Origin: Bacteroidales bacterium
GTDB lineage: Bacteria > Bacteroidota > Bacteroidia > Bacteroidales > F082
Direction of reading: 5' to 3'
Assembly: GCA_018399335.1 (NCBI GenBank)
Contig: JAGYNM010000004.1
Coordinates: 1-48,853 of the forward strand
DNA length: 48,853 nt
Below are positions 7,818 to 38,785 of this stretch, piece by piece; within the stretch, counting starts at the first letter, position 1, and every line of letters begins with the position of its first letter. The notes beneath the pieces were generated by a model, which saw only the letters and a program-made list of their open reading frames with translations, searched no databases and had not been told where the DNA came from. Made by a program: the position numbers and the translations under genes.

Positions 7818-8195
7818 ATGGAGGTTAACATGTTAGAAAAAAAACACATACTGGTAGTTGATGATCTTAAAGTAAATTTTTTACTCATCAAAGCCATGCT
7901 TTTACGAAACGGTTTGCAAGTTACATGGGCTGATAATGGCTATAAAGCCATCGACATTGTGAAACAGGAGCATGATATTAGTGCTGTGCTTATGGACTAT
8001 AATATGCCTGGAATAGACGGTTTGGAAACCACTATTGCCATAAAATCGCTCAGACCCGAACTCAAAGTAATCTCTCACAGCACATTTACCGATACCTCAT
8101 CTTTTGACAGAAAAAATGCCCCATTTGATGATTATTTGCCTAAACCCATAAATTGTAACCAGTTAATATTATTGCTCGAAAAACACCTCGCTTAA
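7818..8195 (+). CDS. Single-domain response regulator (CheY-like receiver)
   Basis: ILVVDDLKVNFLLIKAML…VLMDYNMPGIDGLETTIAIKS…DYLPKPI receiver motifs. Confidence 0.9.
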   Translation: MEVNMLEKKHILVVDDLKVNFLLIKAMLLRNGLQVTWADNGYKAIDIVKQEHDISAVLMDYNMPGIDGLETTIAIKSLRPELKVISHSTFTDTSSFDRKNAPFDDYLPKPINCNQLILLLEKHLA

Positions 8196-8286
8196 AAATC
8201 TGAGCTAACAATTTTTTATTCTCAAAAAGCTTTGCTAATTTTGTTGCACTCCAATCCTTGATAAAGCCTGGATTAATTGCACCTGC

Positions 8287-11085
8287 ATGAAAATAAAAAT
8301 TGCCAGATTTTTGCTGTTGTTTATGCTGTTTGCAGTGCAGGAAATCCTTCAGGCACAAGCCGATAGTCATTTACTTGCTGACAGCCTGCGCATGCAACTC
8401 GAAAAAACTGAAGGCAGCGCAAAGCTACAGGTTTACAAGGCCCTAATCAAAAGCTTACGAAATATTGATCCGGCGATTGGAATTGATTATGCCCGCGAAG
8501 CGATACCCCTGGCTGAAACGCTTGGCGCTAAAAAACTAAAAGCTGAAATCAGAAACGAAGAAGCCGTCTGTTACCGCAAACTGCACATCTACGAAAAGGC
8601 ATATTCGCTTCACCTGGAATCCCTGCAAGATTTCAAGCAGATGGAAGACAGTTCGGGCATTGCTTTTACACTGGCCAACATCGGACACGTTTATTTCTTT
8701 TACAAAGATTACGAACAAGCTATTAAATATCACATAGACGCCTTGGTAATTAAGGAGTTTTTAAATGATGAACCCCAAATAGCTTATTCACAGAATGCGC
8801 TGGGAATGGTTTTCCTCGAAATGGAAAATTACGCCCGGGCGCTCGACTTTTTTATTGCTGCGCTCAATATTCAGGAAAAATATGATCTGCCGGCTGAAAC
8901 TGCAAACACTAAAGCAAACTTGGCGAAAGTTATGTTTAAGCTTAAACGCTATGACGATGCCATTAGCTATTTAAAAGAAGTCGAATCCGTTTATATTCAA
9001 GCTAAGGCTAATTATGGCCTCAGTCAGGTTTATAACCAGATGGCTGATTACCTTGTTGAACAAAAAAAGTTTGTTGAGGCTCAAGAATACCTCAACAAAG
9101 CTCAAACCCTGGCCGAGAAAACAGGCGACATAACTGTGTTGCTGTTTAATTATGCTACACGCCAAAAAATTGCCCACGCACAGCAGAATTATCAGGAAGC
9201 CTATAATTATTTAATGATTGCCAACGAGTTAAGAGACTCATTGATGAATGAGCGCAGGCATCACGAAATGTCAGAAATCAGGATTCGATACGAATCCAAG
9301 CGACTTGATGATGAAAATGAAATTTTACGCCTGCAACTCTCGCAACAATCACTCAGAACACGTTACATCATTTTTGCATTGCTTGCCGTCCTGTCGATCC
9401 TGATTATTTTTGTGCTGATAACCATTGTTCGGCGTAATCGGCGCAAAAGCCGCCTGCTCGAAATTACCAATCTTGAACTAGAAAAACGCGTTCAAGAACG
9501 AACACAAGAACTTAAAAAGCAAGTTGATGCGCTGGATCGCACCTTCCGTTCGCTAAAGCAAAGCGAAGAGAAATTCAGGAAAATAAGTGACACTTCTCCA
9601 CTTGGCATTGCTGTGACTAACCCGCAAGGCAACATAGTTTTCATCAACCAAACGCTCCCCGAAATCCTTGGACTTTCGCAGCAAGTGCTCACAGATGGAT
9701 CGTGGTTCAGGCATATTCTGCTCGAAGACCGTAACAAAATGGACATCCTCTGGCAAAATGCTCACCGGGCTAAAGAGGGCGTTTTTGAAGCTGATTTCAG
9801 GCTCCGCCTCGATCAGGAAATTCGCTTCATCCATTTCAAAGCAGCCACCATGTTCCTCGAAGATGAATTTGCAGGTATTGTGAGTGTTTTTGAAAATGTT
9901 ACTCAACGCAAAAGCTTTGAAAACGAACTTGTTGAAGCCAAAAATAAAGCCGAAGACTCCGATCGGCTCAAGTCGGCATTTCTGGCCAATATGAGCCACG
10001 AAATCAGAACTCCAATGAACGCCATTTTAGGCTTTTCCGACCTGCTTTCGACGGATGAATACAGCCCTGAAGAAAAAATGGAATTCATCGAAATGATCAA
10101 ATCAAGCGGAAGATTGCTGCTGAATCTGATCAACGATATCATTGATATTTCAAAGATTGAAGCCGGTGAGCTTAAAATCCAACCTTCCGAATTCAGACTT
10201 CTTGAGCTGATGGAAGAAATGTCGCAGGGCTTCCGGCAGCAAATGGACAGAAATGGTAAATCTCATGTGAAGCTATTGCTCACGCATCAGGAGGAATTAA
10301 AAACTGCTTTAATTACAACCGACCGATTGCGATTACAACAAATTATGACCAATTTGCTGAGTAATGCCATGAAATTTACGCCGGAAGGTGAGATTGAGTT
10401 TGGTGCTTTGGCAATTAATAATTCCTATGAATTTTTTGTAAGAGACACTGGGATTGGCATTCCTGAGCATAAACTTGAGGTTGTTTTTGAGCGCTTCAGG
10501 CAGGCCGACGATTCACACACCCGTCTTTTTGGAGGCACTGGTTTGGGCCTTGCGATTACCAAACACCTTATTGAATTACTCAACGGTAAAATATGGGTTG
10601 AATCGCAGGAGGGAAAAGGAACCGCGTTTTATTTTACACTGCCTTCCGGCTCCGATTCACACTCCAAAATTGTTCCTTCAAAAAACGTAAATTCATCCCT
10701 TCCCGATTTTGAGGGCAAAACGATACTTGTTGCAGAAGATGTTGATACGAATTTCTTCCTGATCAAGACGATGCTCAATAAATTGAATTTAAATGTTTTA
10801 CACGCATCCAATGGTTTGATTGCACTCGATATGGCGGTGGAACATCAACCCGATCTGATCATTATGGATATTCAAATGCCGGAGATGGACGGAAGTGAAG
10901 CTTTTGAGCAAATCAGGCATCAACATTTAAAAATGCCCATCATCGCAATCACTGCTTTTGCCATGCTTGGCGAAGAAAAACAATACCTTGATTTGGGCTT
11001 TGACGCTTACTTAAGCAAACCTCTTAGCCTGGATAAACTAGTAGATTTGCTGGTTGTTTTTCTGCAACCTAAAAATCCTGAATAA
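8287..11085 (+). CDS. Hybrid sensor histidine kinase (TPR, TM, PAS, HisKA, HATPase_c, receiver)
   Basis: Tandem TPRs; TM RYIIFALLAVLSILIIFVLITIV; PAS; H-box SAFLANMSHEIRTPMNAILGFSDLL; N/G boxes NLLSNAMKFTPEG, DTGIGIPE, GGTGLGLAIT; receiver TILVAEDVDTNFFLIKTML…DIQMPEMDG…LSKPL. Confidence 0.96.
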   Translation: MKIKIARFLLLFMLFAVQEILQAQADSHLLADSLRMQLEKTEGSAKLQVYKALIKSLRNIDPAIGIDYAREAIPLAETLGAKKLKAEIRNEEAVCYRKLHIYEKAYSLHLESLQDFKQMEDSSGIAFTLANIGHVYFFYKDYEQAIKYHIDALVIKEFLNDEPQIAYSQNALGMVFLEMENYARALDFFIAALNIQEKYDLPAETANTKANLAKVMFKLKRYDDAISYLKEVESVYIQAKANYGLSQVYNQMADYLVEQKKFVEAQEYLNKAQTLAEKTGDITVLLFNYATRQKIAHAQQNYQEAYNYLMIANELRDSLMNERRHHEMSEIRIRYESKRLDDENEILRLQLSQQSLRTRYIIFALLAVLSILIIFVLITIVRRNRRKSRLLEITNLELEKRVQERTQELKKQVDALDRTFRSLKQSEEKFRKISDTSPLGIAVTNPQGNIVFINQTLPEILGLSQQVLTDGSWFRHILLEDRNKMDILWQNAHRAKEGVFEADFRLRLDQEIRFIHFKAATMFLEDEFAGIVSVFENVTQRKSFENELVEAKNKAEDSDRLKSAFLANMSHEIRTPMNAILGFSDLLSTDEYSPEEKMEFIEMIKSSGRLLLNLINDIIDISKIEAGELKIQPSEFRLLELMEEMSQGFRQQMDRNGKSHVKLLLTHQEELKTALITTDRLRLQQIMTNLLSNAMKFTPEGEIEFGALAINNSYEFFVRDTGIGIPEHKLEVVFERFRQADDSHTRLFGGTGLGLAITKHLIELLNGKIWVESQEGKGTAFYFTLPSGSDSHSKIVPSKNVNSSLPDFEGKTILVAEDVDTNFFLIKTMLNKLNLNVLHASNGLIALDMAVEHQPDLIIMDIQMPEMDGSEAFEQIRHQHLKMPIIAITAFAMLGEEKQYLDLGFDAYLSKPLSLDKLVDLLVVFLQPKNPE

Positions 11086-21715: not shown

Positions 21716-23068
21716 ATGCGTAACCAACAACAGGCATCCATGAAAAGAAAACGCGATATCATTATAAAAGGCTTTTCCAAGCTTCTAAAAGAAGAAAAGC
21801 TGAAGCTTGTTGCGGAATATTTTGAAAATCCGGGTGAGGTTATCAGCCTGCTCAAAAGTTTTTGGCATACAGACGAAAGCCAACAAAAACTTTTTGATGA
21901 ATTCAGCGAAAACACCATTACTAACTTTTATATTCCTTATGGAATTTCGCCCAATGTGATCATCAATGGCCGTAACTATCTCGTTCCCATGGTAATTGAG
22001 GAAAGTTCGGTAGTTGCAGCAGCATCTGCAGCAGCCAAATTCTGGAGCGAGCGAGGTGGTTTTCATGCCGAAATTGTTGATGTAAAAAAGATCGGACAAG
22101 TTCATTTCAGCTGGAGCGGAAAACCCGAAACGCTGTCGCAATTGATGCCGCAGCTAAAAGAATATCTTATCCAGTCGGCAAAACCTATCACCGCAAATAT
22201 GGAAAAACGAGGCGGTGGAGTGCTTGATATTGAGCTGGTGAATATGACTGATAAACTCGAAAACTATTTCCAGTTGCTGGTAACTTTTGATACCCGGGAT
22301 TCTATGGGTGCCAATTTTATCAATTCGGTGCTGGAAGAATTTGGCCAAAGCCTGCGGCACTTCCTCTCTGAACAGATTCAGCTCAGTATAGAGGAAAGAC
22401 AGGTAGAAATCATCATGGCAATTCTTTCAAATTATACTCCTGAATGTGTGGTTAAAACCTGGGTAGAATGCTCCATTGACGAACTGGAAAATGTGGATGA
22501 AAAATTGTCGGGAATAGCATTTGCCCGAAAGTTTGAAAAAGCCGTAAAGATCGCTCAAATAGATACTTACAGAGCTACAACCCACAATAAAGGAATTTAC
22601 AACGGCATTGATGCAGTGGCTATAGCAACCGGAAACGACTTTAGAGCCATCGAAGCTGCCGGACATACCTATGCTTCACGAAACGGACACTATGAGAGCC
22701 TTTCAAGGGTAGAAATTGATCAAAACACTTTCCGTTTTATCCTTGAAGTGCCGCTTGCCTTAGGAACTGTTGGTGGTTTAACCAGCCTGCATCCGCTTGC
22801 CAGACAATCACTCGAATTGCTTGGCAATCCTACAGCCAATGAGCTAATGATGATTGCAGCAGTGATGGGGCTTGCCAATAATTTTTCTGCCGTGAAATCA
22901 CTTACCACAATTGGAATTCAGGCTGGTCACATGAAAATGCATCTTTTCAATATCCTCAACCATTTCAAGGCCAGCGAAGCCGAGAAATCAGCCGCAGTGG
23001 ATCACTTTAAAGATCAAAAAGTTTCATTCTCCAGCGTTGGTAAATACATTGCTTCACTTCGCAGCTAA
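21716..23068 (+). CDS. Hydroxymethylglutaryl-CoA reductase (class II-like)
   Basis: VPMVIEESSVVAAASAAAKFW, GIYNGIDAVAIATGNDFRAIEAAGHTYASR, LPLALGTVGGLTSLHPLA-like motif, GIQAGHMKMHL. Confidence 0.95.
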   Translation: MRNQQQASMKRKRDIIIKGFSKLLKEEKLKLVAEYFENPGEVISLLKSFWHTDESQQKLFDEFSENTITNFYIPYGISPNVIINGRNYLVPMVIEESSVVAAASAAAKFWSERGGFHAEIVDVKKIGQVHFSWSGKPETLSQLMPQLKEYLIQSAKPITANMEKRGGGVLDIELVNMTDKLENYFQLLVTFDTRDSMGANFINSVLEEFGQSLRHFLSEQIQLSIEERQVEIIMAILSNYTPECVVKTWVECSIDELENVDEKLSGIAFARKFEKAVKIAQIDTYRATTHNKGIYNGIDAVAIATGNDFRAIEAAGHTYASRNGHYESLSRVEIDQNTFRFILEVPLALGTVGGLTSLHPLARQSLELLGNPTANELMMIAAVMGLANNFSAVKSLTTIGIQAGHMKMHLFNILNHFKASEAEKSAAVDHFKDQKVSFSSVGKYIASLRS

Positions 23069-24010
23069 GTGGATAATATACAAACATTTAAAGCAAACGG
23101 AAAACTCCTGCTAACGGGGGAGTATCTTGTGCTTTATGGCGCCAATGCACTTGCTATGCCTGTCAATAAAGGACAGCAAATGGAGATAAGCACAACTGTA
23201 AATACCGGAAGCCCAAAAATTATCTGGGAAGCTTACAAAGCTGACGGACTATGGTTCAGCGTAACATTTAAACTTTCGGACTTCAGCATAGTGGAAACAT
23301 CAGATGCAATGCGGGCTAATAAGTTACAACTGATCTTAATTACTTTGCAGCAACTCAATCCTACAATTTTTGCCAAACAACAAAACTATCATTTTCGCAC
23401 CCGGATGGATTTTGCCCCAGAATGGGGTTTTGGCAGCAGTTCAACGCTCATAGTAATGCTTTCGCGCTGGGCCAAAGTGAATCCCTATACTTTGTTGAAT
23501 TTCTCTATTGGCGGCTCGGGATACGATATCGCTTGCGGTATGGTTTCAGAACCAATTATCTATCAATTAAAAGGATTACAACCACAACACCGACCCGTAA
23601 ACTTCGATCCGCCTTTTAAATCACATCTGTATTTTGTTTATCAGGGCAAAAAACAAGACAGCGCAAAAGCTATTCGCAAGTTTCAGGAAGAAACCCCACT
23701 CGAAAAGATCAAACAAGCTGTTGAAATCCTGAATAAGATTACTGATGAAGTTATCCAATGCAAAAACTTTGATGTTTTTTACGAATTAATGAAACAACAC
23801 GAAACACTGATAGCTGAGCTCACAGGATTAACGCCAATACAATTTTATTACCCTGATTTTAAAGGCGTAATGAAATCGCTGGGTGCCTGGGGGGGCGACT
23901 TTTTGCTGGCTGCTTCCCCTCAGGATGAACAGGAAATGATGCACTATTTTCAACAAAACAACTTGAGCCCTGTTTTTAGATTCGATGATTTAACCATTAA
24001 AGCCCTTTAA
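23069..24010 (+). CDS. GHMP kinase, putative phosphomevalonate kinase
   Basis: GKLLLTGEYLVLYGANALAMPVNKGQ, PEWGFGSSSTLIVMLS, GGSGYDIACGMV. GTG start directly abuts the HMG-CoA reductase stop. Confidence 0.8.
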   Translation: MDNIQTFKANGKLLLTGEYLVLYGANALAMPVNKGQQMEISTTVNTGSPKIIWEAYKADGLWFSVTFKLSDFSIVETSDAMRANKLQLILITLQQLNPTIFAKQQNYHFRTRMDFAPEWGFGSSSTLIVMLSRWAKVNPYTLLNFSIGGSGYDIACGMVSEPIIYQLKGLQPQHRPVNFDPPFKSHLYFVYQGKKQDSAKAIRKFQEETPLEKIKQAVEILNKITDEVIQCKNFDVFYELMKQHETLIAELTGLTPIQFYYPDFKGVMKSLGAWGGDFLLAASPQDEQEMMHYFQQNNLSPVFRFDDLTIKAL

Positions 24011-24012
24011 TA

Positions 24013-25086
24013 ATGCACTATTTGGAAAAAAAATGGCTTTCGGAAGCCAGGCAAATTACTTCTGAAATTCAAGGCCGCCTTTCCTGGCAAAGTCCATCCA
24101 ATATTGCGCTCGTAAAATATTGGGGAAAACATGGTAATCAACTTCCCAACAATCCATCCATTTCATTCACCTTGAGCGAATCGCGCACAGAAACTACGAT
24201 TCATTATTCACCACGGGAGACTAAGGAATCGATCCGTTTCTTCTTCGAAGGAAAGGAAAATAGCGCTTTTGGCCAGAAAATTGAGAGCTTTCTTACGTCT
24301 ATAAAACCATTTTTTCCTTTTTTGGATCAGCTTCACCTCAAAATTGAGAGCTACAATACCTTCCCCCACTCGTCGGGGATTGCCTCCAGCGCATCAGCGA
24401 TGAGCGCTTTGGTTATGGGAATTCTTGACCTGGAAAAAACAATTAGCGGACAAGCTGTTGATTTAATAAAGGCCTCCTGGTTTTCGCGTTTGGCCTCCGG
24501 AAGCGCCTCACGATCTGTTTATCCCCATGCCGCTTTGTGGGGAAAAACATCAGCTTTGCCAGAAAGTTCCGATCATTATGCAATCGCATTGCAATCGCAT
24601 TTACATCCCATTTTCATGAATTTTCGCGACAGCATTTTAATCACAGATTCTGAGAAAAAAGCTGTTTCAAGTCGTGCAGGTCATGCCCTTATGGATGACA
24701 ATCCTTATGCGAAAGCCAGATACCAAACAGCTAATCAAAATACTATTGAACTGCTTAACGCCTTGCAAAAAGGTGATTTAGAGCACTTTATTCAAATCAC
24801 CGAATCTGAGGCTTTGCAGTTACATGCTTTGATGATGAGCTCCAACCCATCATTCATCTTAATGAAGCCCAACAGCTTAAGCATAATTTCTGCCATTCAG
24901 CATTTTCGTAAAAATACACGAATACCACTTTGTTTTACCTTGGATGCCGGCCCAAATATTCACCTGCTTTATCCCGAGAATTACAAGGAAAAAGTATTGG
25001 ATCTCATTCAAAATGAATTAATCCAATGGTGTCAAAATGAATACTGGATTGACGACAAAACCGGACATGGACCTTCGTCTCTTTAA
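24013..25086 (+). CDS. mvaD: Diphosphomevalonate decarboxylase
   Basis: SPSNIALVKYWGKHGNQLPNNPSISFTLS, FPHSSGIASSASAMSALVMG, RLASGSASRSVYPHAALW, CFTLDAGPNIHLLYPE. Confidence 0.95.
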   Translation: MHYLEKKWLSEARQITSEIQGRLSWQSPSNIALVKYWGKHGNQLPNNPSISFTLSESRTETTIHYSPRETKESIRFFFEGKENSAFGQKIESFLTSIKPFFPFLDQLHLKIESYNTFPHSSGIASSASAMSALVMGILDLEKTISGQAVDLIKASWFSRLASGSASRSVYPHAALWGKTSALPESSDHYAIALQSHLHPIFMNFRDSILITDSEKKAVSSRAGHALMDDNPYAKARYQTANQNTIELLNALQKGDLEHFIQITESEALQLHALMMSSNPSFILMKPNSLSIISAIQHFRKNTRIPLCFTLDAGPNIHLLYPENYKEKVLDLIQNELIQWCQNEYWIDDKTGHGPSSL

Positions 25087-25089
25087 ATA

Positions 25090-26013
25090 ATGAGCACACC
25101 AGAAAAATCATACCCGGGAAAAATCATGCTATTTGGAGAATACAGCATCATTTGTGGCTCCAAGGCCTTGGTTATTCCTTACGATAAAGTGAGTGGCAGG
25201 TGGGAGTTTCAACCGGATGGCATTTCACTATCTGCTTCCATAAGAGATTCTCAAAAAGAACTTAGAAAACTGATTGAGTATTTAAATTCTAAACCAAGCA
25301 TTGCTGATATTATTGATTTGCAGAGTTTTATCAAAGATGTGGAATCTGGTCTCTATTTTAATTCCACCATTCCACAACAATACGGAGTTGGCAGCTCAGG
25401 CGCATTAGTTGCAGCACTATATGATCGTTACAAACGATATAACGAAGGTGATTTGGAGCAATTAAAAACAAACTTAGCGCTTATCGAGTCGGCCTTTCAT
25501 GGCAATAGTTCAGGGATTGACCCACTCTGTTGCTATCTTAACGAAGCTGTTTATATCGACCAAAAAGCCGACCCAAGACCGATAAAGTTATCAAATACTA
25601 ATGAAATATCTGTTTTCCTTATCGACACACATATAAGTTCATCCACAGAGCCTTTAGTATCATATTTCAAAGACAAATTGCTTTATTATTCATTTTTCAA
25701 AAAACTGTTATATTCATATATACCGATAGTTAATAATGCTATTGAAGATTATATCAATCATCGCTATAATGCTCTTTACGAAAAAGTAGAATTCATCGGA
25801 GCAATTCAATTTGAGCTATTTGACAAAATGATTCCTGATGAATTGAAACAGCTATTTAAACCGGATTCTTCCAGACCTTTTCAGCTTAAACTTTGTGGTT
25901 CTGGAGGAGGTGGCTATTTGTTGGGTTTCACCTTAAAACCGGACGAAACTAAATCTTTTTTAGTCGATAAAAATCTCACTTTTCAGTTTCTCAAACCTAC
26001 TAATTTTTGTTAG
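25090..26013 (+). CDS. Mevalonate kinase (GHMP kinase)
   Basis: PGKIMLFGEYSIICGSKALVIPY, QYGVGSSGALVAALYDRY, ESAFHGNSSGIDPLCCYL, LCGSGGGGYLLGFT. Confidence 0.88.
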   Translation: MSTPEKSYPGKIMLFGEYSIICGSKALVIPYDKVSGRWEFQPDGISLSASIRDSQKELRKLIEYLNSKPSIADIIDLQSFIKDVESGLYFNSTIPQQYGVGSSGALVAALYDRYKRYNEGDLEQLKTNLALIESAFHGNSSGIDPLCCYLNEAVYIDQKADPRPIKLSNTNEISVFLIDTHISSSTEPLVSYFKDKLLYYSFFKKLLYSYIPIVNNAIEDYINHRYNALYEKVEFIGAIQFELFDKMIPDELKQLFKPDSSRPFQLKLCGSGGGGYLLGFTLKPDETKSFLVDKNLTFQFLKPTNFC

Positions 26014-26124: not shown

Positions 26125-28076
26125 ATGAAAAAGAGTTCTCTTTTATTATTGCAATTGTTATTAGTAGGTTTTGTTGGTTTGAGTCAGACTATTCCCGGAA
26201 AAATAATGCTTGTTGGAGGAGGAAGCGAAACAGCAGGTGGTTGGAGCGATGAGCCCTATACATGGGCAGTAGATGAATCCGCAAATAAACGGGTAGCAAT
26301 TATTGGCGTTAATAATGATGTTAGCGAGTGGTTGCCAAATTATTTCATGGATAACTGCGGAGCTGTTTTTGCAAAGAATTTTATTGTCCCTAACCAATCA
26401 GTTGCTAATCAGCAGAGCGTTTACGATAGTTTGATTACTTATGATGTTGTTTTTTTTCGCGGAGGTGATCAATACGATTATTACAGTCGTTTCAAAAACA
26501 CGCTATTGCAGGAAGCAGTAGCTGAAACTTTTGGAAGTGGCGGGGTTATTGCCGGCACCTCGGCTGGCCTACATATACTTTCCGGTGTAGTTTTCACCGC
26601 CCGCAATGGGACTGTCTATCCTGAAGAAGCAATTGAAAATCCTTACAACCAATACATGACGCTTGCGGATGACTTTTTCAGTTTCATGCCTAATATGGTT
26701 TTTGAAAGTCACACAGCCGAACGTGCCCGATTTGCCAGAGTTATAGGATTCATGGGACGTTGGAAACTTGATGGCAACATTCCTCCACTGGGTATTGCTG
26801 TTGACGACAAATCCGCTTTCTGTATCGGCTCAGATTTGAAGGGCAAAGCTTATGGAACAGGCGCCGTAGGAGTTTATTATGCCGGCGAAGACAATAACTT
26901 CAGGCTTAGCGGACAAAAATTACTGGCAGATAATATTCATGTGAGTCAACTTGTTCATCATACTGAGATTGATCTAAATTCACTTGAAGTATCTGGCTAT
27001 GAAACCCTTATTGAGACTAGTGAATCAGAGGTCTATGGTATTCCACTTTGGTTAAGTGGTTCTGACAATCTCGCACACAATCAGGAATTAATTCAGGAAT
27101 TTTGCAATTTCCAGAATACTTCTGATAGCATCATTCTTATAACGAATCAACAAAATGTTTCGGTTAATAATCTGATCTCACAGCTTAATAACCAGGGTTC
27201 AATCGTATCTGTTGTTGAAGCCAATCCCATGAATGGGAATAATCCAGAAGTTCAACAAAAATTTACATATTGGAAAAAGCTTGTTTTTATCAGAATGATT
27301 ATCTCCAGTTTGATGGATTTTATACAAGGCACACCCAATGGTCAGTTGCTTATGAATCTCATTATCAATGGCTCCAAACAGATTGCAATGATTGGTGGCG
27401 ACCAGGTAGCTTTGCTGGTAAGACAGCGATTTTGAACTATGCCCAGGAATATACAAGCTATGATGGTTGCTGGATATAAGCGATGGTATGGGTTTTCTGC
27501 AAAATATGATCGTAATGCCTAATACTTTTCTCAATCAATCGATAATGAAAATGCCGCAACAAGTGTGCCTTATGCGATGATTTCAGAAATCTTGGTTTTG
27601 GCTTATGGTTATCCGAAGGCAATTATGCACGTTTTCTCCTTCGGATGAAAATTACGAACCTAACTGTCTCAGGTGATTTTCCAGCCATATTGTCCCATAA
27701 ACAACAATACTTTTGGAAAGCTTACGGATCAATCGGCGGTAAGTTCTGGTAACCCAAGTGCCGGATTTAAGCTGTTGACTTACAAATTATTAGACAATAC
27801 AACACCTTTTGTTATTGACCTTACCAACAGCTTAACTGATTTGCGTTCGCAGCAGCTTGTTCCCTATCCTAATCCAGCGACCAACACACTTCAATTAGCA
27901 GAATCTTTTGCCGGAAAATCGTTTTTATCCTTGATTCAGGTGGTAAAACCCAACATTCAGGAATTATTGGCCTGGATGGGAGAGTTGATGTAAGCTTTTT
28001 ATCAGGCGGGAATTACATTATTCAAGTTGTTACAAGTCCTACTAAAATTAACGCATTTAAATTCGGTGTATTATGA
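26125..28076 (+). CDS. Secreted S51-family (cyanophycinase-like) peptidase with C-terminal T9SS sorting domain; frameshifts in the 3' third
   Basis: Signal peptide; GKIMLVGGGSE; FFRGGDQYDYY; GGVIAGTSAGLHILSG nucleophile motif. Frames after ~27300 continue (GKTAILNYAQEYTSYDG, GMGFLQNMIV) and end in LVPYPNPATNTLQL…ILDSGGKTQHSGIIGLDGRVDVSFLSGGNYIIQVVTSPTKINAFKFGVL*. Confidence 0.82.
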
Positions 28077-28857
28077 GAATATTTGGTTGCTTTAAGTCTG
28101 GCTATACTCTTTAGCTTATCAGGGTTTGGTTTTTTGGCCAATCGCAAACTGCTTCTGCGCAGGAGACAAAGGTAAACTATACATTATCAGCGGAGGCAAA
28201 CGTCCGGTATCCATGATACAGGATATTATTGAAGTTTCGGGGATCGATAAACAAAAGACTATGGCATTGTGTTGCCCATGTCGAACAGCGAACCTGATAC
28301 CAGCTTTTATTATGCATGGCTTTCTTTTGCCAACCAGATTTGAAAGGCTTGTTAATTTAAACATACAAGACAAACAGAAATGACCGCTTCGGGCTTGACT
28401 CTGTGTGCGCAATGCGCCGTTGATCTATTTACCGGGAGGGAATCAAAGCAAATTTGGCGCGGAGATCGTTGGCCGCTCACCATTGCATCAGGCCATTCTG
28501 GATGCTTATCAAAACGGAGCAACAATAGCTGGAACAAGCTGGGGCAGCAGTTCAAAGCAAGAAAATGATTACCGGTAATGAACTTAAGTATGAAAAATAC
28601 CGGTGAATACCGCAGTATTGAGGCCAATAATGACGAAATAAGCCGAGGGCTGGGATTGCTGGAGCATGCCATTATTGACCAGCATTTTATCAAGCGGATG
28701 CGCATGAATCATTTGATCGCGGCAGCCATTGAAAACCCGGAGGAATTATTAATCGGGATTGATGAGTCAACAGCAATATTGGTTGATGGAGATGTTGCAC
28801 ATGTGGGCTTATCAGGTAGTTGTTCTTCGGAACAGCAAAAGGGATAAAGGAAAATAA
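28073..28857 (+). CDS. Second cyanophycinase-like (S51) protein, frameshifted
   Basis: ATG overlaps the upstream TGA (ATGA). Frames give GKLYIISGGKRPVSMIQDIIEVSGI, YLPGGNQSKFGAEIVGRSPLHQAILDAYQNGATIAGTS(A)GAAVQSKKMITGNEL, EISRGLGLLEHAIIDQHFIKRMRMNHLIAAAIENPEELLIGIDESTAILVDGD, the characteristic cyanophycinase layout. Confidence 0.82.
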
Positions 28858-28926
28858 AGGATTGTTAGGTGCTGAAGGCATGACGCAGTATTTATCTTCC
28901 AGGTGAACAATTTGACTTAGAGCCAT

Positions 28927-28970: not shown

Positions 28971-29767
28971 TTATTCCTTGAACAACTTACGTGTTTCAAC
29001 TACACGATTAGCCTTTAACACTGTTACAAAGTAAATGCCAGACTCTAAGTTTGCTGTTGCAACTTTTCGCCTGACTGCAATGCCCGATCAATTACAACCT
29101 GACCAAACAGATTCTGAATCCTAATTTGATCAAATTCAGCACCTAAGTTGTTAGCTGATCGTTAAATGGATTGGGATAAACCTTAACTGAAAGAAGCAGA
29201 TTGCTCAATTGTTCCAACACCGTCCCAGAGTTCAAAGCCGCCATTGCTACAAGATTTTGGCCGCCAACTTCAAAGCACATTGTCAAGATAAACGGTTCCA
29301 TTATCAACAAAGCCTTCATCATCATAAAATTTGATCCATGCATAACCAGCCACAGCGCCTTCGGAACAGTACCTGTCCAGCTGATATTCTGCCAAGAAGT
29401 ATCCCCATCTTGCCCAAAAACAGGATCTTCGCCATAGATATCACCACCATCAGCATCATAGAATTCAGCATAAACTTTAATGCTAATCAGCGGGTCATTG
29501 TCAAAAATACCACAGACTGTAAGTGTATTCTTCTCCTGCTGTAACGTCAAATGTAAACGACAGCAGATAAGGCACTTCGGGGCTGTAACAAAGCTAACTT
29601 TACAACTATAATCCCCGTCATACACATTCTCTGTTTCCTGAAAGAGATGCACGTCAGCTCCGGGTTCACTTCATCCGGTAAACCAGTCATTTGGCATCGA
29701 CGCTGTGCCATTGCAGCAGTTCCAACGAACAGTGCAATAATTAATGTAAGTAAAGATAATTTTTCAT
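28971..29767 (-). CDS. Small secreted protein with T9SS C-terminal sorting domain, frameshifted
   Basis: Adding one base at T5 29760-29764 gives MKKLSLLTLIIALFVGTAAMAQRRCQMTGLPDEVNPE. Central ORF 29143-29652; C-terminus VYPNPFNDQLT…FDQIRIQNLFGQVVIDRALQSGEKLQQQTLESGIYFVTVLKANRVVETRKLFKE*. Confidence 0.7.
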
Positions 29768-29802: not shown

Positions 29803-30954
29803 TTATCTTAAGATATCAATCGTTATCGCATAAGCATTCACTCCGAGCCAGGGCTCAGGATTTCCGCCATCAAGATCTGATCTGAAAGAATTCCGTTATC
29901 GTACCTATCGGGCACATAGAGTTTTCCTTCATCAGGATCAACAGCAATTCCCCAGCAAAACTTCTCGTTGAAATAGGAATTGATGTTTACAACTTCCCGG
30001 AGCCATCAAGCTTGGCCATAAATACGCCACCAACCCAATCAGCATAATACGGTTTCTGATTGTGGTGAGATCCAACGCGATAGCACCAGCATCAACTCCC
30101 GGAATAATTGCTGAAGTCGGTACCATCAATATTGATGGTATATACGCCTCCGCTAAAATCATATTTATCATTTTACAAAATAGATTTTTTTGTGCAATAC
30201 TGTCATACGCCATTCCCAATGGCAGCTCGGGAGCACCAGTAAAAGTAACAAAGGGCTCTACATTGCTTCCATCAAGATTGCATCGCGAAATCCCCCCTTC
30301 GATGGCCCAGTATAATTTCCCTTCGACTACCACCATTCCATAAGGCGCACCTACCAATGGGTCAGCATCTTCCGAAAGAAAGACCTCCTGATTTTCTCCA
30401 TTTAGATCATATCTGTAAATAAAACCATCCGTATCCGAAACATAAACTTTAGCTCCCTCATAGTCAATGGCAATGCCATAGGGTTTATTGAGACCACCTG
30501 TCGGAAAGTCGAAAACTACGGGTGCATTGCCGTCCAGCCGCACATAATGTACTTTACCCGTTGATCGGGAAGTATAATAGAGTGTGCGAACCTTACCGGC
30601 ATTTGGATCAGCAAGATTCAAAGGAATCTTCTTTTGCAATTCGTTGTAATATAATTCTTCCAACGGTTCAATCGTTAGGCTGATATTGTACAATCCCGGT
30701 TCTTCAATCACAAAAGGTTCCGGGTTTTCTGCTGTTGAGGTGAGACCATTACCAAAATCCCACAAATAGGATTTTGCATTTACGGAAGTATTGGTGAGCG
30801 TAATGGTAGCAGGTGCTAACTGACTGCTTGCCGTAACTTTAAAATCAGCAATGCTGCTTGCCGGAGGAATAGGTTGCTTTTCTTTTTCGCAAGCACTAAA
30901 TAAGACTCCCAAGCTAAGGAGCATCAGACCCAGTATTAAATTTCTTGTTTTCAT
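29803..30954 (-). CDS. PKD-domain lipoprotein with YWTD/NHL-like beta-propeller, C-terminus frameshifted
   Basis: Lipobox LLSLGVLFSACEKEK; PKD motif YLWDFGNGLTSTAENPEP; repeats RTLYYTSRSTGKVHYVRLDG, AKVYVSDTDGFIYRYDLNG, KLYWAIEGGISRCNLDGSNVE. A shifted frame continues to …RSDLDGGNPEPWLGVNAYAITIDILR*. Confidence 0.8.
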
Positions 30955-30971: not shown

Positions 30972-32298
30972 TTAATATCCGGTATTTTGACTCATACCTT
31001 CATGATTATTATTCTGTAATTCTACCAAAGGAATCGGAAACAACAACTGATTAACAGATGTGATATCAGGCAAGATTTCAAGCGCCCTTCCCGTCCTGAT
31101 CAGCTCGAACCAGCGTTTCCCTTCAAAGGCAAATTCTCTTCTTCGCTCTGCCTCAATATCAAGCAGCAATTCCTCATACGTATCACTACTAACCGATGTT
31201 ATTCCAGCGCGAAACCGCAGGATGTTGATATCGTTTCTGATGGCTGCCTTTGACCCTTGAAGCCTGGCTTCGGCTTCGGCCCTAATGAGAAACATTTCTG
31301 CCAATCTGAAAACTGGTACATTATTGGCCATTGTAATCATATCAGGAGTATTTGAGACCATAAGGTGGATTTCCTGCAATAGTAGCATTCAAACGGTTCG
31401 TATCTGACGAATCATAATTGGCTATCAGATCAGCAGATGGTGCTACTTCATATCGGCCACCTTGTGCAGTTGGGAAGAAATATTCTGCCAAACGATTGCC
31501 ATCCTGCTCATTGAAAAGCACTGTAAAAATTGCCTCTGTTCCGGGTTCTCCACTAAAAATATCAGCAAAAACCGGCTCAAGCGCATATTCACCGTCTATT
31601 AGTTCAGTGGCTTTTTCTTTGGCTATTTCGTAATTGCCAAGAGTAAGCGCCACATCAGCTTGTAAAGCCAGTATGCTGCCATTAGTTGCATAGCCGGGAT
31701 TGCTTCCTAAGATTTTTCCCTGAGCAGCCATGAGGTCTGCATTAATAGCTTCATACACTTTGTCAACCGGATCACGTGGCACATTGAGATTATCTCCTAA
31801 ATTGAGTGTTGGCTGAGTTTTTACAGGAACAGGACCAAATAGCCGCACTAAATTATAATGAGTCAGTGCCCTTAAAAAATACAGTTGTGCTGCGGTGCTT
31901 TCCTGCTCTGTCTCATTCATATCACTAATTTCCGGCAGTTTGTAAAGTACATAATTTACCCTGTTGAGTAAGTTGTAATGTGCATTCCAAATAGACTCAA
32001 CGATAATATTGTCAGCGAGCAGGTTATTGTTTTCAAATTGTCCGTATTCCTGCGTTGTGCCTTTCCAGTCGAGGTTATCGGCTGTAAGGTCTGGTATAAT
32101 TACAAGATATCTCCCATACATACCAGTTTGCTGCAAAGCATTGTAACATCCCGTAAGGGCAGTTTCGACACCACGCTTATTCGTGATGGCAAGCTCTCCA
32201 TCAATATAATAGGTAGGTTTTACCTCCAGGATTTTTTCACAACCTGCTATGCCAATGAGAATTAGTAAACTAAGCAAAGTATATATTGTCTTTTTCAT
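30972..32298 (-). CDS. SusD/RagB-family outer-membrane lipoprotein, one frameshift near 31360
   Basis: Lipobox LLILIGIAGCEKILEVKPTYYIDGELAITNKRGVETALTGCYNALQ; AAQLYFLRALTHYNLVRLFGPVPV; in the other ORF VFRLAEMFLIRAEAEARLQGS and RRREFAFEGKRWFELIRTGRA. Confidence 0.92.
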
Positions 32299-32310: not shown

Positions 32311-35300
32311 TTAAAATCCAACATTTAGGCCAATCATAAATCTGCGCGACTGAGGATAAGTAAAGAAGTCCGTTCCTATTCGCAGATTATCATTACCAGC
32401 ATAATTAATCTCAGGATCCATTCCGCTGTAGTTTGTGAATGTGAGCAGGTTATAGGCAGATACAAAAAGCTTCAGGTTCGAGATCCTTAGCCTTTCAATA
32501 ACAGTTTTAGGAAAAGTATAGCTAACAGCCAGTTCTTTAAGGCGTATATAAGAACCATCTTCAATAAAACGGGACGAATGCCTATTGTTGTTATTGGGAT
32601 CAGCCAGCGTGGCACGAGGTACTTCAGTTTGGTCAGCCAGGCTGCTGCCAGCGATCAATGATAGTAGTTAGCTGGTTATCCTCTCCTTTAAGCGACTCGA
32701 TATATACCCTTGTACCATTGTAAATATCATTTCCGTAACTGAATTGGAAAAACATACGCATATTCCATTGCCTCCAGCGCAGACTATTGTCCAGGCCTCC
32801 ATATAGTTCAGGATTTGGGTCTCCAATTCGTGTGCGGTCTTCGGCCGTGATCACACCATCTTTGTTCACGTCATCAAAAACGATATCACCGGTGGAAGGG
32901 TCAACACCAAGCGAACGAAATCCGTAAAAAATACAGCGGTTCGCCTTCGCCGATATAGTTGCTACCTCGGCCAATGTTATCAATTGGCTGCCCGTTGTAA
33001 AGCTTCAAAACTTTGTTTTTATTCGCTGTGATGGTTAGCGTTGAAGTCCATTCCAATTTGTCATTTCTGATATTTGTTGTTTGCAGGGCAACTTCCAGGC
33101 CGCGGTTTTCCATCTCGCCGATATTTTCCCAAACAGAAGTAAAACCAGATGAAGGAGGAATAGGACGGGCAAGCAACAGGTCGGATGTTAGGCTGTAATA
33201 ATAGTCAACATTTAGGTTTAGCCTTGAATCCCATATCGTTAAATCAAAACCGATATCTAACTGACGCGAAGTTTCCCATTTTAAGTCAGGATTTGGCATT
33301 TGAATCGGATAGATGCCCGGCTGACGATTATAATTTCCCCGTCCATCAAAAAGTGAAAGCGATGCAAAACGTGAGATTTTATCATTACCGGTATAGCCAT
33401 AACTGCCTCTGAATTTTAACTCATCGATAAAAGTCAGCTGATCCATAAAAGATTCTTCTGAGATACGCCAGGCAGCAGCAAAAGCTGGAAAAAAGCCATA
33501 TTTATTATTGGCTCCAAAATTGGAAGATCCGTCATAACGGGCGCTGGCCGTAAAAAGATAACGATTATTGATGTTGTATTTAATTCGTCCGAAATAACTA
33601 TTGGTGCGGTCTTCAACAACACTCGAAGATGCCTCCGTGATATTGGCTGCTGAAGTGAGGTATTGAAAATATTCGTTAGGAAAATCTGTTCCTCTTAAAA
33701 ACGAACGCTTGTCAAAGAAACGCTCATAGCTATAACCCAGCATTCCTTCGAAAGTATGGTTTTCGACCCACGATTTTTCGTAGCGAAGCAGGTTATAGGT
33801 ATTAAAATTGGAAGCTCTGGTATTGGCATCAAAGCCCAAGCCATTATATTTTTTTCCTTGACGTGTAGTAACCGGATCGTAACTATGTTCTTCGAGATTG
33901 AGGTAGTCAATGGCCCATTTTGTTTCAAAGCTCAATCCGTCTGTAATGAAATAATTAGCAAAAACATTAGCAAGTGTCCGGATATTTCTCAGTTCGTTAA
34001 CGGCTTCGTTAGCAATTGCTACAGGATTAGCATAAGGACCATCTTCGTTATAGGTTCCGTCTTCATTATATACCGGATAGATGGCAGGCAACGAAATGGC
34101 ATTCGGCAGAGGTCCGTTAAGCGACTGATCACCTTCTACTCTGTTGTTTAAGCTGGAACTAAGAGAAACTCCGGCACCAATTTTTAAGCGCTCATTCACC
34201 TGATGGTCTATATTCAGTCGTCCGCTTAGTCGGTTGTAATCTGTGCCTATCAAAACACCTTCTTCGTCAAGATAACTTCCCGACAAAAAGAAAGTGGTTT
34301 TTTCGTTTCCCCCGCTGGCAGAAAGCTCATAATTCGACATGATTCCTGTGCGGAACACTTCATCAAGCCAATTGGTATTCACCTTAGGATTGGTGATGTC
34401 TTCATCGGAGAAGATTGGTGGTGCTCCTTCATTCACTTTTTGTTCGTTACGATAAATCATCCATTCAGGGGCATCAAGCATATCAAGTGTCTTTGCCACT
34501 TGTTGAACTCCAGTAGAAGTATTAAACTGAAAACGCGTTTTTTGTTTGTTTCCTCTTTTTGTTGTGATAAGCACCACGCCACGGGAAGCTCTTGCCCCAT
34601 AAAGTGCAGTAGCAGCAGCATCCTTCAATATGGTCATGGATTCGATATCATTGGGATTAATATCTGAAATGGCACTGATCGTTTGTCCGCTGTAACCAAT
34701 CTGGCTGAAATCGCCACTCAGCACCGGAACGCCATCCACCACATAGAGTGGTTGATTATCGGCGCTGATTGAATTATTGCCACGGATTCTAACAGAAACA
34801 CCGCCACCGGGAGTTCCGGAGTTTTGGGTTACCTGAACACCGGTTACCCTTCCTTGCAAAGCCACATCAAGATTAGCAACAGGAACTTCTTCAACGTTTG
34901 ATGGTTTAAAATCCGAAACAGAACCAGTTAAGAGTTTCCTGCTTTCAGTTCCGAAACCAACAACCACTATTTCATCTAATCCCACAAGATCAGAAGCCAG
35001 CTGAACATCAAAAACCCTTTGTTCGCCCACTGGCATCTCCACAGTTTTCATACCTACCAATGAAAACACAATAATACGATCGTTGCTGCTGGTTGATAGT
35101 GTAAATAGGCCATCAATATCTGTGACAGTTCCAATGGTTGTCCCCTTGAAAAAAACATTTACGCCTGGCAAAGGCATCCCGTCTTCGCGAGCGGTTACTT
35201 TACCTGTTAAAACAATTTCTTCTGGTTTTTGAATCAATGGTGAAGCTTGTTCAGGTAAAGATTTTACGACTAAATAATTTTCAACAACGCTGTAGGTCAG

Positions 35301-35617
35301 GCTTGTCCCTTTCAATACAACCTGCATCGCCTCATCCAGATTTACATTGCTCAATTGGGCTGAAACAATTTGCTCTGGTTTAAACAACTCATTATTAAGC
35401 AAGAAAAGCAAATCAGCTTTTTCGGCTACTTGCTGAACAGCCTCGGGCAAAGGCTGTTGCTGTATATTCAGGTCGAATCGCGTTTGCTGCGAATACACAC
35501 CGGCATGCAGTTGGACAACAGCGGCAAAGTCAATAACAGAATGAGCTTCATGGCAATCAGTGTTGATCTTGAACACGTTCGTAAAAACGATCCGGGCCAG
35601 AGTAAATTTTTCTTCAT
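32311..35617 (-). CDS. SusC/RagA-family TonB-dependent receptor with N-terminal STN domain, frameshifts near 32.64, 32.93 and ~35.5 kb
   Basis: STN FDLNIQQQPLPEAVQQVAEKADLLFLLNNELF; carboxypeptidase-regulatory-like domain; plug ESMTILKDAAATALYGARASRGVVLITTKRG; C-terminal beta-barrel. Spread over ORFs 32901-35576, 32633-32983 and 32311-32658. Confidence 0.94.
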
Positions 35618-35704: not shown

Positions 35705-36892
35705 AATAAATGATTATACGTTCGTTTTCAACTTCATAGCTTATCGAAGTGGTTTCCGCAATCAGCGAGAGCAGAAACTCAACCTTCCGGCTGTTTTCAA
35801 TGGCTCCCGTAAACTTTATGTCTGCTTTATTACTATTTTTAATCTCTATTGGGATAGCATACCAGCGTTCAAGACGCTTAACCAATTCGCGCAGTTCCAT
35901 ATCCTTGAAATATAACACATCATCTTTCCAGGAAGTGTAGAGTCGGGTCTCAACTTCCAGCTTTTCGGCTTGTTGGGTTAGGTTATCAATACGAGCCTGC
36001 TCACCGGGCACAAGTGAAATCATTGCATTTTTTCTGTTTTCACAAGCACTTTACCACTTACCAAGGTGGTTTCAAAATTGGCATCCTCGTGATATGCAGA
36101 TACATTGAAAGATGTTCCTAGTACCCTGATTTCCTGTTTTCCTGCTTCCACAATAAATGGCACAGCAGAACTCATCACTTCAAAATAGGCCTCTCCTTCC
36201 AGCTTCACACGGCGTTCTGCATCCGAAAATGACACAGGGTAAGTGAGCTTGCTGGCTGCATTCATCCACACCTTTGTGCCATCCGCAAGAACAAGCTGAT
36301 ACCTGGCACCGGCCGGGACGATCAATTCATGAAAAACTGCTTGACTGGCTTTCTGCTTAAAGGCCTCATTTTTTGAATATGAAAGCTTTTCGCCGGGCTG
36401 ATTTTGAATTTCAAAGGCTGATTCTTTTAGTTGCATTTGAGCGGTATCGAGGGCAATCAAACTTCCATCTGCAAGCTTGAGGCTGGCTTTTAGCATCCTT
36501 TCAGGAAGCACCTCAACCAAAGGCTCTTCTTCTTGTTTATTGAGATGATCACCTTCATAAAGCAACAAAAAGCCCAAACCGGCCAATAATACAAACAAAG
36601 CAGCCCACCTCAAGGCAAAAACAAGGTTTATTCTTGATTTTCGTTTGGTTTGGATCTGCGCTTCCAACTTCTCCCATGCTTCCGGTAAATCCAATTTGTT
36701 GGCAAGTGCTTGCCAGTGGACCCTATCCAATATTTGCTGAAAATGAGCCATCTCTTCCTTGTTTTCAGGATGCTCATTTAACCATGCATTAAGCTGGTTT
36801 TGGTCTTCAGCCTTAAGCATTTGAGATCTGGATTTTGCTATGAGGTGCAAAATCTCTTCCGGAATCTTATGTTCTGGATTTTGAGTATTCAT
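35703..36892 (-). CDS. FecR-family anti-sigma factor, split by one frameshift at ~36030
   Basis: ORF 36020-36892 (GARYQLVLADGTKVWMNAASKLTYPVSFSDAERRVKLEGEAYFEV…LGTSFNVSAY) plus ORF 35703-36023 (LVPGEQARIDN… C-terminal domain). One extra base in T6 36028-36033 rejoins them as VKTEKNAMISLVPGEQA. Confidence 0.9.
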
Positions 36893-36927: not shown

Positions 36928-37491
36928 TCATCTGGATTTTTTTTCCAGGAAATAATTTTGAAGTGCTTTGTTTTCTCGCAAAACTTTGAGTGCCAGCTTA
37001 AGGTTTGATTTCAAGGTATTGATGGTAATCCCAAGTTTTTCAGCGGCTTTTTGGTATGAATAATTCTGAAGATAAACCAATTCAAGCGCAGCTCTGGATT
37101 TTTCAGGAATCTGTAAACAAGCCTGCGCGATAACTTGCTGTTCTTCTTCATCAAGGATAAAATCTAGCGCTTGTTTCACCTTTTCTTCTTTCATCCCTGA
37201 AAGCGGCTTTTGCTGACTCTTGTTCTTTTTAAGCCTATTCAAACACGCATTACGCACTGCGGTATAAAGGAAAGATTTGTAGGAAGTTTGGATGTGAAGA
37301 AAATATTTCTCCTCCCAAAACTTCACAAATACCTGCTGCACGACATCTTCGGCCTCCTGCTCGTCGCGTAGATAAAAAAATGCAGCAAGGTATAGCGCTT
37401 TGTAATAACGCTTAAACAACTCCCTGAAGGCCTTGCTGGCATCGAGGCGAAAAAACGAAGCGATATTTTTATCGTCCTGATTCATCGGCAT
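36928..37491 (-). CDS. ECF-type RNA polymerase sigma-70 factor
   Basis: FRELFKRYYKALYLAAFFYLRDEQEAEDVVQQVFVKFWE; region 4 LELVYLQNYSYQKAAEKLGITINTLKSNLKLALKVLRE. Confidence 0.93.
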   Translation of the reverse strand: MPMNQDDKNIASFFRLDASKAFRELFKRYYKALYLAAFFYLRDEQEAEDVVQQVFVKFWEEKYFLHIQTSYKSFLYTAVRNACLNRLKKNKSQQKPLSGMKEEKVKQALDFILDEEEQQVIAQACLQIPEKSRAALELVYLQNYSYQKAAEKLGITINTLKSNLKLALKVLRENKALQNYFLEKKSR

Positions 37492-37515: not shown

Positions 37516-38785
37516 TCATTCATAAGTCCCTTTCACCAGCAGTTTGCTTTCATGCATCATCCATTTTCCGTTTGCCATCACGCTGCGAAGGTTTAAGTTA
37601 TTGTCAAGCAATAGTAAATCAGCATCAAATCCACTTTTTATCTGGCCTTTAGTATGCAATTTTAAAATCTTCGCAGGATTCTCGGTAATGGTTTTAAGTG
37701 CCACAGGAATGGTTAAGCCTTCATTATTGATCATATCAGTCCATTCGGAATGAAGCGACTTCAACGAACCCATTTCAAGTTTAACCAGTTTCCCCTGTTC
37801 ATCAAAATGAGGCAGAGAGCCAAATGCATCAGACGTCATGGTAATATGCCCGATTGGAACTCCTGCTTCCAGAAGTGCCTTGACAGCAGCGGAGGGCTTG
37901 ATTTCAATATCAGGAAAATATGGATAGGAACTTGCTGTGAGGTCAATATAAGATAGTTTCCCATATTTTTTGGCATCCTCAAAAATATAGCTATTGCGAT
38001 TGCAGTGTGTTGGAAAAAACTGTTTTAAACTAAGTTCACTGGAATCGGCTACTTCATACAGCAACTTAAACGGGTTTTTAGCATCACCCATGTGAATGTT
38101 GATAATACCTGCTTTACCACCCAACATGCCACCAACGCGGGCATGCGCAGTCAATTTGGTGAGTTCTGCCAGGGTAGGGTGTGATGATCGGTGATCGGAG
38201 AGGGCAATTTCACCTACCCCAATCACTTCCTCTATTAAAGTAATATCGCGTCCCACATCACCTGTTAAGGTTGGCGTAGGAACCTGATAAGCACCTGCAT
38301 ACATCCAGGCCGATACGCCCTCAGCTCTAAGGGCTTTAACTTTCATCAATACAGATTCAAAGCTCCGTGTAAAACCATCTGTTCCCAAACAGCCTACTAC
38401 ACTTGTCACCCCTGCTTCTATCATATGCGAAAGTTGCATCTCAGGCGTTCGTGATGCGGGACCGCCTTCGCCTCCAGCACCGGCAATATGAACATGGGCA
38501 TCAATAAATCCAGGGACTAATTTCAAACCACTGGCATCATATTATTTTAGCCATCGGAACCTGACTGGCCATCTGTGGTCGAATGGCAATTATTTTACCC
38601 CCCGCAACCAAAACATCGTTTTTGCCAATAGCTTCCGGTGTAAAAACATCAGCATTCGTTATTAAAAATAAATTAGATTCCATTTGTGCTGTATTTTTTA
38701 TATTTATCTGTTGGAAAGCATTCCTTTTGGATACCAAAATTAAACATTCAACCGTGATAACACAAAAAACACTGAAGACAATCAT
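37516..38785 (-). CDS. iadA: Isoaspartyl dipeptidase (beta-aspartyl peptidase), one frameshift near 38530; start may be downstream at MESNLFLITN
   Basis: NADVFTPEAIGKNDVLVAGGKIIAI + DASGLKLVPGFIDAHVHIAGAGGEGGPASRTPEMQLSHMIEAGVTSVVGCLGTDG; GAYQVPTPTLTG; SDHRSSHPTLAELTKL; VGGMLGGKAGIINIHMGD; FPTHCNRN; closely matches the recalled E. coli IadA sequence. Confidence 0.94.

Follow-up and report, generated by a model that had tools for sequence, protein, structure and literature searches.

A T9SS-tailed tandem S51 protein in a putative cyanophycin utilisation locus of a Bacteroidales bacterium

Gene content and frame integrity of the locus

The window, i.e. the whole stretch of 48,853 nucleotides analysed here from a Bacteroidales assembly (GCA_018399335.1), carries a cyanophycinase, an isoaspartyl dipeptidase and a transporter clustered between positions 26125 and 38716. 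The features are listed below; residues are numbered as in the cyanophycinase CphB and L numbers denote loci of other genomes.

26125..28076, + strand: gene of the T9SS-tailed, predicted tandem-S51 protein, frame-broken after about 27400 (intact relatives have about 655-660 aa)
26125..26190, + strand: N-terminus resembling a signal peptide, MKKSSLLLLQLLLVGFVGLSQT, as judged by eye from the sequence
26554..26568, + strand: GTSAG nucleophile motif, Ser codon at 26560, aligned with Ser132 of CphB
26701..26742, + strand: FESHTAERARFARV, with the equivalents of His174, Arg178, Arg180 and Arg183 kept, Asp172 changed to Glu and Gln173 to Ser
26806..26808, + strand: Asp at the Glu201 position of CphB, Asp being also found in 48 of the 58 long clade members
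27010..27790 (approximate bounds), + strand: predicted second S51-fold domain without conserved Ser or His, from the AlphaFold model of relatives
27840..28076, + strand: T9SS type A sorting domain (YPNPATNTLQL..., TIGR04183), spread over two frames
28073..28925, + strand: classical DQH cyanophycinase partner, 66% identical over 246 aa to the intact L049 copy, with about nine frame changes
29806..30954, - strand: PKD and propeller-like lipoprotein in the SusE/F position, with PKD matches and 45% identity to the L038 PKD protein
30972..32298, - strand: SusD-like lipoprotein (SusD-like_3) with one frame change, 46% identical to the L047 SusD
32314..35576, - strand: SusC/RagA TonB-dependent transporter (TIGR04056, 740.9 bits; tblastn pieces), with C-terminal frame changes
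35709..36892, - strand: FecR anti-sigma factor (PF04773)
36928..37491, - strand: ECF sigma factor (TIGR02985, 130.9 bits)
37516..38716, - strand: IadA beta-aspartyl (isoaspartyl) dipeptidase (TIGR01975, 437.8 bits, cut-off 331.25)

The stop of the tandem gene and the start of the classical cyanophycinase overlap, and the genes from the PKD lipoprotein to IadA lie on the convergent strand. The intact classical copy of L049 reaches 153.3 bits with the cyanophycinase equivalog TIGR02069 (cut-off 126.6). The L049 IadA is 72% identical to that of the window, which has one frame change near its N-terminus. The window SusC is near several SusC homologues and RagA alike, so that similarity does not show whether peptides or glycans are transported. 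The tandem gene is directly preceded, at positions 21716-26013, by genes of the mevalonate pathway (HMG-CoA reductase, GYDIA GHMP kinase, diphosphomevalonate decarboxylase and a mevalonate kinase-like protein). An open frame of the error-rich zone (29143-29652, - strand) ends near a T9SS-like VKVYPNPF motif; it has no Pfam match and is probably what is left of a further sorted protein.

The open frame 26125-27435 belongs to S51 (PF03575, 26.6 bits for a gathering score of 23.9), a family matched by ten of ten relatives at E <= 0.01. It contains both FESHTAERARFARV and the GTSAG motif, which had been reported at the N-terminal side by an earlier, sequence-only reading of this DNA. In a frame-tolerant alignment, the gene follows residues 2-642 of the intact 655-aa L036 protein at 44% identity, with zero in-frame stops and about seven frame changes, nearly all after 27400. 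It scores 549.7 bits, far beyond chance, with a profile built from intact relatives; when the genome contigs were scanned, a profile search gave a match and a single-protein search none. The same reading had proposed a T9SS-type 3' end, and YPNPATNTLQL is indeed encoded from 27865 in the frame of the gene start, the rest of the sorting domain being in a different frame with a stop at 28074-28076 that coincides with the end it gave to the gene. The 'neighbouring canonical copy' that it mentioned is a classical cyanophycinase, but this gene is itself broken.

Such breaks could denote a decaying pseudogene in a locus that is dead in the source organism. The frame changes of the tandem gene and of its neighbour are numerous, and the PKD, SusD, SusC, FecR and IadA genes are also broken. 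Nevertheless, the breaks of the window are mostly found at about 27.4-30.2 kb, across three unrelated genes, where identity with intact relatives remains high, as in the neighbour with its 66%. Open frames also fail at about 41 kb, beside a ribonucleotide reductase gene, and sprA, on another contig of the same assembly, is broken by five TGA, one TAG and three TAA. Because of this high identity, of a path that has no stops besides the frame changes and of the damage at sprA and around 41 kb, local assembly error is likelier than decay. The breaks look like assembly or sequencing errors, and we regard a dead locus as quite improbable.

Domains, active site and export of the tandem protein

A search of 100 related genomes yielded intact homologues of the tandem protein, mostly about 655-660 aa long and 38-48% identical over the searched part. 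Their sequences and models suggest an active-type S51 domain followed by a second S51-fold domain and, usually, a T9SS tail. In the AlphaFold model of an intact relative (pLDDT 85), the first domain matches 7uqv, 3en0 and 7uqw (E about 1e-15), with a TM of 0.78 against 3en0 (CphB) when normalised by 3en0. The model of this relative also matches the T9SS C-terminal domain 8qb1. The second domain was modelled alone (pLDDT 86), and each of its 20 best PDB matches is an S51 enzyme (TM 0.54-0.65, normalised by query). Its invariant residues among relatives include neither Ser nor His. The profile-profile comparison with the first domain is not significant, so that the S51 nature of the second comes from predicted structure. 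S51-fold matches combined with the lack of invariant Ser and His therefore suggest a tandem S51 protein with an apparently empty second domain. This degenerate domain and the surrounding utilisation locus had both been overlooked in the earlier description of the gene.

The catalytic residues of CphB are Ser132, His174 and Glu201. All 58 long relatives share the equivalents of Gln101, Ser132, Asp172, His174, Arg178 and Arg180, and 57 of them that of Arg183. The Gln173 position is occupied by Thr or Ser in all 58 and the Glu201 position by Asp in 48, while both residues are kept in 36 of 36 DQH-type enzymes. Judged from these alignments, the Gln173 change marks the whole clade, designated D[ST]H, and the active site is not lost. 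Compared to D-Q-H-F-x-x-R-x-R-x-x-R-L, the window protein has D replaced by E, Q by S, F by T and L by V, with the His and the three Arg unchanged. The altered motif noted from the sequence is thus present, but it is less altered than was implied. The window copy adds D172E and F175T to the clade signature, E172 and T175 being rare in the clade. The idea that ESHT is unique to the window copy was dropped since the Ignavibacteria relative L113 also has it.

An exported, non-enzymatic protein binding cyanophycin or granules would account for the absence of conserved Ser and His in the second domain and for the unusual E172 and T175 of the window copy. However, the Ser nucleophile and the His of the S51 fold are present in the first domain of the window copy as in every one of the 58 long relatives, and we find a pseudoenzyme hardly credible.

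The read-through tail of the window gene matches TIGR04183 (24.3 bits, cut-off 23) and falls just under the cut-off of PF18962 (26.2 bits for 27). A T9SS tail is found by Pfam in only six of ten family members, the remaining tails being degenerate. SprA_N, from the T9SS translocon, is matched in ten of ten genomes; sprA is intact in nine relatives and fragmented in the genome of the window. With the TIGR04183 match and sprA in the genome, the proposal of an S51 paralogue with a T9SS tail holds, export itself being predicted. In L074, the gene immediately before that of the tandem S51 protein (7906-8892) codes for a PorV-like T9SS protein.

Clade membership and distribution of the locus genes

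The S51 tree was rooted by PepE (dipeptidase E) and computed by a quick search with SH-aLRT supports and no bootstraps. In this tree, the D[ST]H rows are united in a single clade (71 rows, SH-aLRT 100) apart from the DQH enzymes, of which CphB is one. The window protein clusters with the L036, L035 and L064 proteins (SH-aLRT 99), and its classical neighbour with the classical S51 protein from a genome of the same genus (SH-aLRT 97). No grouping of the window protein with PepE was found in the tree, and its genome encodes a separate PepE of its own. The protein is thus distinct from dipeptidase E and from the neighbouring cyanophycinase, in line with what the sequence-only reading had supposed. 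With TIGR02069, the window protein (62.5) and three intact tandem relatives (80.8-117.9) stay under the cut-off of 126.6 that the adjoining classical relatives (153-180) exceed; therefore, activity of the tandem proteins on cyanophycin is a prediction.

These scores, the deep separation of the clade, the Ser or Thr found throughout it at Gln173 and the frequent Asp at Glu201 would also suit a protein acting on other beta-aspartyl or Asp-rich peptides, e.g. isoaspartyl-damaged protein, both enzymes then feeding IadA. A different substrate had already been suspected from the motif. Nevertheless, the mapped functional positions other than these two are kept clade-wide, among them those equivalent to Gln101, to the Ser and His and to all three Arg. 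A classical cyanophycinase repeatedly adjoins the gene, and does so for D[ST]H proteins beyond Bacteroidota as well; in the window the classical cyanophycinase, SusCD and IadA around the gene point to the same polymer. We consider another substrate unlikely; the tandem enzyme may show a subtle shift in preference (chain end, length, Arg versus Lys).

Around intact tandem copies, SusC, SusD, the classical S51, the PKD protein and IadA recur in varying order. In the Bacteroidota MAG loci L053, L054, L056, L057 and L058, an M28 peptidase, IadA, the tandem S51, the classical S51, SusC, SusD and the PKD protein are encoded in succession, and subsets of these genes are found at other loci with intact tandem copies. 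Co-occurrence was assessed in 100 near genomes, 12 with the tandem gene and 88 without. IadA is encoded in all 12 of the former and in 7 of the 88 latter (Fisher p = 5e-11, a value that overstates independence because the genomes are related). It is single-copy in close relatives and at most about 10 kb from the tandem gene in nine of the 12 genomes. In a phylum sample of 396 genomes, about 19 others encode a long tandem protein and none of those has IadA. The IadA link is thus a feature of the order of the window, and the dipeptidase must differ between lineages. A cyanophycin synthetase scoring over the cut-off was found in none of the 12 tandem-gene genomes, that of the window being 77% complete. 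One of them, G094, has a partial cyanophycin synthetase match of 667 bits; another CphA-like fragment of this genome adjoins IadA and an S51 gene. Eleven of the 12 are without a convincing cyanophycin synthetase.

Related arrangements were observed elsewhere. At L112, L116, L127, L129, L130 and L137, D[ST]H S51 and DQH cyanophycinase genes are adjacent or separated by a few kb; outside Bacteroidota, such pairs occur in Planctomycetota, Bacillus, Microbulbifer and Pseudoalteromonas. In an annotated Pseudoalteromonas record, iadA, yfcC, a TonB-dependent receptor, a cyanophycinase and a D[ST]H-type S51 stand side by side. In 13 of 19 Ignavibacteriota loci (L074, L078-L081, L086, L087, L089, L091, L092, L094, L095 and L103), an M14-type peptidase is encoded just downstream of the tandem S51 gene with no IadA nearby, and it may be a replacement beta-Asp-Arg dipeptidase. 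That the M14 protein near some loci might be a known cyanophycin dipeptide hydrolase found no support in its sequence, the best PDB matches being carboxypeptidases. The cultured isolates Fulvivirga kasyanovii (L067), Pseudochryseolinea flava (L070) and Marivirga sericea (L073) carry the tandem S51, the classical S51, SusC, SusD and two PKD/propeller lipoproteins, and no IadA was found near their tandem S51 genes. Large DUF5018-type proteins, possibly involved in polymer binding, recur beside cyanophycinase genes (L042:5350-7881, L101:3187-5742, L040:13615-16095), with a T9SS tail seen on those of L042 and L101.

Proposed function and relation to known systems

Cyanophycin is a nitrogen-storage polymer of cyanobacteria. 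The tandem protein is probably a T9SS-exported S51 protein of the D[ST]H clade that performs, within a SusCD-type cyanophycin utilisation locus, the outermost step. Its N-terminal S51 domain (Ser/His/acid) would cut extracellular cyanophycin at the cell surface, and the degenerate second domain would help to hold the polymer or take the place that the second subunit has in a cyanophycinase dimer. SusC/SusD and the PKD/propeller lipoprotein would import beta-Asp-Arg products, the adjoining classical cyanophycinase, which also has an export signal, would finish oligomers, and cytosolic IadA would split beta-Asp-Arg into Asp and Arg. The ECF sigma factor and FecR would turn the locus on. We infer the substrate, the order of the steps, the compartments (read by eye from the N-termini and from known families) and the role of the second domain; the mechanism is drawn by analogy with Sus systems. 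The best reading is that labour in the locus is divided by compartment rather than by substrate. Because IadA acts on many beta-aspartyl dipeptides, the locus could also serve other isoaspartyl peptides.

A wider proposal is advanced here only tentatively: the D[ST]H tandem proteins could be a distinct S51 subfamily, a surface cyanophycinase that works jointly with a classical DQH enzyme and whose empty second domain serves to bind the polymer or as a substitute for the dimer partner. The two enzymes might, for example, differ in the chain end, the physical form or the side chain that they attack. With CphB of Synechocystis (PDB 3en0, 7uqw), the clade shares the fold, Ser132, His174, Gln101 and Arg178/180/183. 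Unlike this single-domain enzyme with DQH and Glu201, it has D[ST]H, Asp, tandem domains and a T9SS tail. Dipeptidase E (PDB 1fy2) has the S51 fold in common with the clade but differs by its GWSAG and NPH motifs and branches far outside it.

A cyanophycin utilisation locus was described in Salinivirga cyanobacteriivorans L21-Spi-D4 (Ben Hania 2017, via PMC10206079); SusC/SusD, a PKD lipoprotein, a sigma/anti-sigma pair and a second S51 domain go unnamed in the secondary account of it in PMC10206079. In strain Omega (Cyclonatronum), CYPRO_0608 and CYPRO_2145 form an S51 pair, one with a Por (T9SS) sorting domain, which the authors likened to Salinivirga homologues, a similar pair existing in Salinivirga, with a genomic context unlike that of Salinivirga (PMC6243061). 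This pair resembles the window locus in having two S51 proteins, one of them T9SS-tailed; its description mentions neither a second S51 domain nor the D[ST]H change (PMC6243061). Since they were reported for Salinivirga and Cyclonatronum, the kind of locus and the T9SS-tailed S51 protein are not new. No report of the second S51-fold domain, of the D[ST]H clade or of the SusCD/PKD linkage was found in the openly readable literature.

In mats and blooms of cyanobacteria, cyanophycin is a reserve of fixed nitrogen; to our knowledge, its uptake by scavengers has been little studied. SusC/SusD systems are best known for glycans; if the proposed function is true, such a system would also serve a poly-amino-acid store, and the locus would be a genomic marker for cyanophycin feeding. 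The tandem S51 protein is carried by cultured organisms and would, if the proposal holds, represent a new S51 clade working in pairs with classical cyanophycinases.
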